The position numbers and the translations under genes were made by a program. The notes below the pieces were generated by a model. That model made no database searches, was not told the DNA's origin, and was given only the letters and a program-made list of their open reading frames with translations. This document shows positions 47,028 to 47,412 of a DNA stretch of 64,000 nucleotides, piece after piece (the stretch's first letter is position 1; every line of letters begins with the position of its first letter). The stretch comes from a virus, in IMG/VR virus record IMGVR_UViG_3300023181_000004, positions 1 to 64,000 of that record. One strand, given 5' to 3'.

Positions 47028-47059
47028 TCGGCATTGACAGGTTCGTTCGGAGTTCCTAG

Positions 47060-47333
47060 ATCACGCATCCGGCCTCGGCCGGGCTGCTGGAGAACACGCG
47101 GGGGGCAGTACCTCGCCGCCTCCACCATAGCCAGTGCCTTGGCACCCCTGCTTTAACGTGACGTCCGAGGGGAGTTGAGGAGCGCACACTGGCTTTGATG
47201 GGGGCGAAATAGGATCGACTCTCCGTGCGGTAGAATGTAAATGCGAATGACAATGGTGAGGCCGTGAGCCTCCGACTGGCAGCGTAACTGCACAGGGGCC
47301 TGACCGAGAGCCTGGCAACATAATCTCGGTCAC
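47060..47333 (+). ncRNA. ssrA: Permuted two-piece tmRNA (ssrA-like)
   Basis: Acceptor part first: T-stem GCGGGG/CCTCGC (47098-47116, seven-base loop), acceptor 3' strand CGCCTCC (47117-47123), A, and an encoded CCA (47125-47127). An intervening loop (stem AGCCAGTG/CACTGGCT) joins it to the coding part: GGGGGCGAAATAGGATCGAC from 47200, whose GGGGGCG pairs with CGCCTCC and gives the G3.U70 wobble that marks tmRNA for alanine. GCG at 47243 opens the tag frame ANDNGEAVSLRLAA, stop TAA 47285-47287. TCTCC (47220) can pair with GGAGA (47089). A 9-bp stem (47301-47332) closes the 3' side. The 5' end is approximate. Confidence 0.88.
47243..47287 (+). other. tmRNA proteolysis tag reading frame
   Basis: Resume codon GCG then AAT GAC AAT GGT GAG GCC GTG AGC CTC CGA CTG GCA GCG TAA, encoding ANDNGEAVSLRLAA. 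With the tRNA-borne Ala the tag would be A plus this peptide. Alphaproteobacterial tags begin (A)ANDN and tags end in small residues such as LAA, the ClpXP signal; both features are present. Confidence 0.85.
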
Positions 47334-47338
47334 CTTAT

Positions 47339-47412
47339 GGGAGCGTAGCTCAGTTGGTAGAGCATGGCACGTCAAAAGGCTCTGGTCGAAGGTTCGAGTC
47401 CTTCCGCTCCCC
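47339..47412 (+). tRNA. tRNA-like element with mispaired anticodon arm
   Basis: Acceptor GGGAGCG/CGCTCCC, D-arm GCTC-AGTTGGTA-GAGC and T-arm GAAGG-TTCGAGT-CCTTC are perfect. The anticodon arm is not: 5' TGGCA faces AGGCT, leaving only two possible pairs, and no reading gives U33 with a sensible short-variable-loop tRNA (CAA would be the U33-consistent anticodon). No CCA is encoded. It starts 6 bp after the tmRNA 3' stem, so it may serve as an RNase P processing signal rather than a translating tRNA. Confidence 0.6.

Follow-up and report, generated by a model that had tools for sequence, protein, structure and literature searches.

A permuted tmRNA gene with a minimal linker and without PK1 in a group of related phages

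The bacterial tmRNA frees stuck ribosomes and marks unfinished proteins for destruction. The present study was concerned with whether a phage locus that resembles such a gene is indeed a tmRNA gene, how it departs from the bacterial form and whether it is likely to work. The DNA analysed (hereafter the window) comprises 64,000 nucleotides, corresponding to bases 1-64000 of a virus record of 83,296 bases. A first-pass annotation of the sequence had described a phage-borne, circularly permuted tmRNA of alphaproteobacterial type carrying its own degradation tag, and had proposed a search with the Rfam alpha tmRNA covariance model. When the whole window was scanned with cmscan (both strands, 4227 families), a single tmRNA was found, matching alpha_tmRNA (RF01849) end to end at 47030-47332 on the plus strand. 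The score of 53.0 bits exceeds the gathering score of 50 (E-value 6.5e-12), and the same family search of the full 83,296-base record returned this locus as the sole tmRNA. Three relatives scored 67-73 bits with RF01849, and the tmRNAs of bacterial genomes holding related phages scored 237-306 bits, as compared to 53 for the window. With the newer model RF04321, the window sequence reached 35 bits, under the cut-off of 47, and two relatives 51-59. ARAGORN left the tmRNA uncalled and reported only the adjacent tRNA. Together, the RF01849 match and its conservation in three relatives bear out the initial description: the locus is a permuted alphaproteobacterial-type tmRNA gene, live and conserved.

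The same contig encodes a terminase large subunit, a portal protein, a primase, a B12-dependent ribonucleotide reductase, a helicase, a family A DNA polymerase, SbcC- and SbcD-like proteins and an endolysin. These phage genes, together with three syntenic related phages, ruled out that the contig represents host contamination. Over its entire length, the DNA polymerase shares 41% identity with its counterpart in Caulobacter phage Seuss. Judging from this homology and from a genome of about 80-85 kb, the 83-kb phage appears to be a Seussvirus-like siphophage. The three nearest polymerases span 74-87% identity, two IMG/VR contigs being at 81-87% and a third at 74%. A 56%-identical polymerase lies on a Sphingopyxis flava contig, making an alphaproteobacterial host likely, perhaps a member of the Sphingomonadales. 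A search of the nearest plasmid and phage DNA for the origin of the gene gave short TLD matches only and no donor.

All the elements named in the first-pass annotation (T-arm, encoded CCA, spacer, acceptor 5′ strand and tag) could be located in the sequence in the permuted order (Table 1). The G3.U70 pair is present where GGGGGCG faces CGCCTCC, and the 14-codon tag frame does end at a TAA. Several parts had escaped mention, namely the promoter-like site, the leader hairpin, the short P2 and the 3′ pseudoknot, as had the lack of PK1. The 17-bp spacing of the promoter-like site and its TAGAT[C/G] motif are common to all four related genomes. The leader hairpin, which is also found in the RF01849 model, forms 6/6 pairs in each of the four genomes, with one double change. 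P2 amounts to 10 covarying bp with a bulge, as against 18 pairs in the model. The T-stem of the window sequence has 6 bp through a paired insertion in both strands; in the three relatives it has 5 bp (for example, GCGGG/CCCGC). A tRNA-like gene begins 7 nt past the tmRNA match. Its acceptor, D and T arms are intact and the pairing of its anticodon stem is abnormal; no such Leu(CAA) gene was found in the two relatives scanned. This neighbour may be a decaying or unusual tRNA.

Table 1. Features of the tmRNA locus and neighbouring elements in the window.
Feature	Position	Strand	Basis or remark
Promoter-like TTGACA (47034-47039), 17-bp spacer, TAGATC (47057-47062)	47034..47062	+	Sequence; activity presumed
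5′ leader hairpin of acceptor piece, UCCGGC-CUCG-GCCGGG	47068..47083	+	Hairpin also in RF01849 model
P2, acceptor-side strand CTGC (47084-47087) and TGGAGA (47088-47093)	47084..47093	+	Pairs with 47220-47230
T-arm: stem GCGGGG/CCTCGC, loop GGCAGTA (47104-47110)	47098..47116	+	Sequence
Acceptor 3′ strand CGCCTCC, A73 and encoded CCA	47117..47127	+	Sequence, RF01849 alignment
Intervening segment, predicted to be excised	47128..47199	+	Terminal stem AGCCAGTG (47129-47136) / CACTGGCT (47187-47194)
Acceptor 5′ strand GGGGGCG (47200-47206, G3 with U70) and D-loop-like AAATAGGATCGAC	47200..47219	+	RF01849 alignment
ATAGGATCGAC	47209-47219	+	Sequence
P2, coding-side strand TCTCCG, bulged T, GCGG	47220..47230	+	Covariation with 47084-47093
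12-nt unpaired leader TAGAATGTAAAT before resume codon; A at −4	47231..47242	+	Spacer-length comparison
Tag frame ANDNGEAVSLRLAA, 14 codons (47243-47284) and TAA (47285-47287)	47243..47287	+	Sequence
3′ pseudoknot: hairpin GACCGAGA (47302-47309) / TCTCGGTC (47324-47331)	47296..47331	+	Covariation
3′ pseudoknot: loop GCCT (47310-47313) pairing with GGGC (47296-47299)	47296..47313	+	Loop pairing 16/16
tRNA-like neighbour, called Leu-CAA, outside tmRNA	47339..47412	+	ARAGORN; RF00005, 52 bits
AAAYTACCnnGTARTTT sites	4620, 7996, 13661, 13736, 17740, 25127, 39348/39352, 46591, 47423, 57916, 59887/59891	both

The three closest relatives (L122/G001, L123/G002 and L217/G006) carry the gene at the same site, 2-3 kb upstream from the polymerase gene. 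Together with the window phage they form one polymerase clade (support 100), all four members of which have the tmRNA. The next relative, sister phage L214/G003, gave no RF01849 match. All four tags have 14 codons and all differ (ANDNGEAVSLRLAA in the window; ANDNSEVYHLRLAA, ANDNDSQVAYALAA and ANDNDTSEVYARAA in the relatives), and in every case the frame is open, with an ANDN start and a stop, and an A occupies position −4 relative to the resume codon. Across the four genomes, 183 of the 184 pairs of the named helices can form, and seven of eight helix sets show compensatory changes. The self-pairing of the spacer, also claimed from the window sequence, was corroborated by covariation: its terminal stem forms 32/32 pairs within genomes as opposed to 32/96 when strands are swapped between them, with double changes in 8/8 columns. 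Corresponding figures are 24/24 versus 47/72 for the inner part of P2 (double changes in 3/6 columns) and 24/24 versus 35/72 for the 6-bp core of the 3′ hairpin (double changes in 6/6 columns). The acceptor stem of G006 has the compensatory combination CGGCTCC with GGGGCCG and retains G3.U70. Since the sequences are only four and helix boundaries were set by eye, these counts speak for consistency and should not be read as a formal probability. The P2 strand of G002 was scored without its bulged U and one position offset from the others. Of 200 dinucleotide shuffles, 198 fold less well than the precursor. Energy-only cofolding of the two mature pieces recovered the acceptor stem and the leader hairpin and missed P2, the evidence for which is covariation.

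In the wider family, RF01849 matched 8 of 80 related IMG/VR contigs at E ≤ 0.01, five of them above the cut-off. Outside the clade of the window phage, the linkers of the tmRNAs are full-size and the genes are located 11-19 kb upstream from the polymerase gene. In view of the small number of matched contigs and of these differences in linker and position, single family-wide inheritance was rejected as a simple account, and separate acquisition is more likely. One-piece tmRNAs were also considered; all RF00023 scores were sub-threshold in the half of the relatives searched. Distant relatives L297 (G008), L300 (G013), L301 (G014) and L303 (G071) have full-size permuted tmRNAs elsewhere in their genomes, with tags such as ANDNSQETALRIAA; in G013 only about 4 nt of spacer follow CCA before the acceptor 5′ strand begins.

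The most distinctive trait of the phage gene is its linker. In the four phage RNAs, 23-25 nt separate AGGATCGAC from the first tag codon. About 11 of these belong to P2, and the 12-14 nt left before the resume codon are too short for a pseudoknot; hence PK1 is absent. In the tmRNAs of bacterial genomes holding related phages the linker is 63-69 nt long, with a conserved PK1 block; in the window, TAGAATGTAAAT lies where hosts carry the remainder of P2 and PK1. Of 385 Alphaproteobacteria genomes, none showed a compact pattern (15-44 nt) and 217 showed a full-size one (52-82 nt), a few of these perhaps by chance, the rest fitting neither exact pattern; this comparison takes no account of relatedness. 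Among 120 viral contigs unselected for linker length, the linker spanned up to 30 nt in 9, 31-50 nt in 20 and 51-82 nt in 72; host DNA may be present in some of these contigs, which would merely dilute the difference. The nine shortest, with further contigs, belong to a second compact group of pelagimyophage-like IMG/VR contigs, having linkers of 26-29 nt and tags mostly of the ANDNFAP... type. P2 pairing and the A at −4 are kept in this group and PK1 is absent. One of its contigs matches pelagiphages and cyanophages at purM. Because the P2 sequence, the tags and the phages all differ, reduction in the second group was probably independent; the compact form occurs in at least two phage groups. 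A tmRNA from a viral contig (L086) has a 31-codon tag, ANDNVAQPKFMKKRNTFARKVGFTKGMALAA.

PK1 is usual in bacteria and has no paired element in the RF01849 model; we took its loss as a variant within the RF01849 family and no ground for exclusion. A comparison published in 2005 marked PK1 as absent in mitochondria only (PMC1168896). No description of a PK1-free, tag-bearing tmRNA was found in the openly licensed literature, although an earlier description elsewhere is possible. What is new here is the architecture, a short linker without PK1.

Permuted phage tmRNAs as such are already known. The statement that tmRNA genes are rare in phages holds as a proportion, one survey having listed 402 of 18,146 phage genomes as positive and called 53 of 133 unique structures two-piece (PMC9004378). 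The permuted type is already reported for Methylophilales phage Melnitz and other aquatic phages (PMC9004378) and annotated, as ssrA, in DSS3_MAL1. Phage tmRNAs have also been listed for mycobacteriophages and phage G (PMC4131195) and reported in Bradyrhizobium elkanii phages (PMC12656738), and we found the acceptor motif in at least 120 IMG/VR contigs, some of which are perhaps host DNA. The phage gene shares with the alphaproteobacterial two-piece tmRNA (RF01849; Caulobacter ssrA) the gene order, a T-loop of the GGCRGUA type, GGGGGCG..AUAGGAUCGAC, G3.U70, the encoded CCA, the ANDN tag, the 3′ CCUGGCAACA pseudoknot loop and the promoter position. It differs in the CGAC-to-tag linker (23-25 nt versus about 63-69), in lacking PK1, in a P2 of about 10 bp and in score (53-73 versus 237-306 bits). 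Melnitz (PMC9004378) and pelagiphages HTVC008M and Mosig likewise combine a permuted alphaproteobacterial-type tmRNA with the lack of a phage SmpB, but their linkers are full-size, at about 60 nt, and their tags are different, Melnitz having in addition a glutamine riboswitch. Seven cultured alphaproteobacterial phages unrelated to the window phage (DSS3_MAL1, MD18, RcXuper, RcRudolph, RcSimone-Hastad, Cp1R7A-A1 and EliS-L02) match RF01849/RF04321 at 84-119 bits. Linkers are long in the six whose coding piece was inspected. Apart from that of DSS3_MAL1, these genes are unannotated; the annotation of RcRudolph places a hypothetical protein over the tmRNA gene. Just upstream from the phage tmRNA, partial GOLLD RNA matches were seen in L436 (1-329, 127 bits) and in L440, i.e. 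MD18 (1-176, 50 bits), both below the gathering score of 150 and clipped by the ends of the stretches. The tmRNAs of the mycobacteriophage Bxz1 group and Bacillus phage G are, in contrast, standard one-piece, unpermuted molecules. The TLD-only RNA of mycobacteriophage DS6A (PMC4131195) is also unpermuted and has no tag frame, whereas the frame of the window gene is open in four genomes.

How might such an RNA work? Host RNA polymerase would transcribe a single precursor from the gene's own promoter, in which the leader hairpin comes first, followed by one P2 strand, the T-arm, the acceptor 3′ strand and its CCA, the spacer, the acceptor 5′ strand, the other P2 strand, the tag and finally the pseudoknot. 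Excision of the spacer by host tRNA-processing nucleases would yield two RNAs, an acceptor piece of about 60 nt and a coding piece of about 133 nt, joined by the 7-bp acceptor stem and the P2 helix of about 10 bp. Once charged by host AlaRS through G3.U70, the RNA would be delivered by host SmpB and EF-Tu to ribosomes stalled on truncated mRNAs, which presumably are common late in infection. The ribosome would then append the phage tag ANDNGEAVSLRLAA, whose LAA end fits ClpXP-type proteases. PK1 would have been dropped and the resume codon set 12-14 nt past P2. No SmpB gene was found in the phage, nor in 17 other tmRNA-carrying phage records, some of which are fragments; any activity must therefore use host SmpB, as well as host AlaRS, EF-Tu and proteases. 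That the RNA is transcribed, processed, charged and used for tagging, and that the phage gains from it, is what we infer from these features. The suggestion made in the first-pass annotation, that ribosome rescue comes under phage control during infection or that the phage RNA takes the place of host tmRNA, is plausible.

Tagging in E. coli survives the replacement of PK1 with a hairpin or a single strand (PMC3968760, PMC4236655). The E. coli resume codon follows PK1 at a distance of 12 nt, and A86, at position −4, determines the frame (PMC2481249). Given this tolerance and the A at −4 in the phage RNAs, the best reading is a working tagging RNA; the gene probably specifies a tmRNA that tags proteins and has a minimal linker. 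Tagging in E. coli was almost lost when helix 2 and PK1 were swapped at the same time (PMC4236655), suggesting that the reduction of both might impair the phage RNA. The score barely over threshold, the extra T-stem pair and the lack of the gene in L214/G003 also count against a working gene, and the tag of G006 ends in RAA, unlike LAA, which may weaken ClpX recognition. On balance, we hold with fair confidence that the phage has here a reduced two-piece tmRNA gene that works by the mechanism proposed above.

Other readings of the locus were weighed against this one. A chance match or model artefact, to which the silence of ARAGORN and the sub-cut-off RF04321 score could have pointed, has a negligible probability in view of the E-value of 6.5e-12 and of independent conservation in three other phages, and is refuted by covariation. 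The low score and the missing PK1 might instead reflect a captured host tmRNA in decay, such as a remnant of integration at ssrA. Covariation makes a decaying copy very improbable: compensatory changes affect seven of eight helix sets, the four genomes all keep the promoter spacing and leave the tag frame open, and no host tmRNA of the compact form was found in 385 genomes. An inhibitor or decoy, that is, a tmRNA-like RNA occupying host SmpB or stalled ribosomes and blocking host trans-translation, deserves somewhat more attention, if still improbable. The TLD and SmpB-binding parts are retained, the linker is reduced, the phage encodes no SmpB, and a precedent has been proposed in the TLD-only RNA of DS6A (PMC4131195, PMC11915505). 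Yet a decoy needs neither the open 14-codon tag frame of all four genomes nor the covarying 3′ pseudoknot nor the A kept at −4.

The remaining alternative overlaps the working tmRNA, from which it differs only in why PK1 went: the RNA works as proposed, but PK1 was lost neutrally and the short linker is without consequence. We consider this a serious contender, with a little less than an even chance. In its favour, pseudoknots are fewer in two-piece tmRNAs to begin with, and the replacement of PK1 is tolerated in E. coli (PMC3968760, PMC4236655). Against neutrality stands the occurrence of the compact pattern in at least two phage groups yet in 0/385 alphaproteobacterial genomes, which suggests phage-specific pressure or relaxed constraint. 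We would give even chances to the broader proposition that phages evolved more than once a minimal PK1-free, tag-bearing two-piece tmRNA, absent from bacteria, functional and possibly a competitor of host tmRNA for host SmpB in infected cells. If true, the natural minimum for the TLD-to-tag linker would consist of a helix of about 10 bp followed by 12 nt.

A near-palindrome, AAAYTACCnnGTARTTT, occurs at about 11 sites in the window on both strands, and two of the sites flank the tmRNA region. TACCNNGTANTTT has 13 exact matches in the window versus 0 in shuffles. The motif looks like an operator bound by a phage regulator, or else a promoter element.

The need for PK1 has so far been argued mainly from E. 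coli mutants. The four related phages and the second group offer natural PK1-free, tag-bearing tmRNAs, in which the resume codon is about as far from P2 as the E. coli resume codon is from PK1. Because such phage genes escape standard annotation (ARAGORN), cases in which phages interfere with ribosome rescue are probably undercounted. The phage genes also provide small, testable RNAs with which to ask what the linker does.
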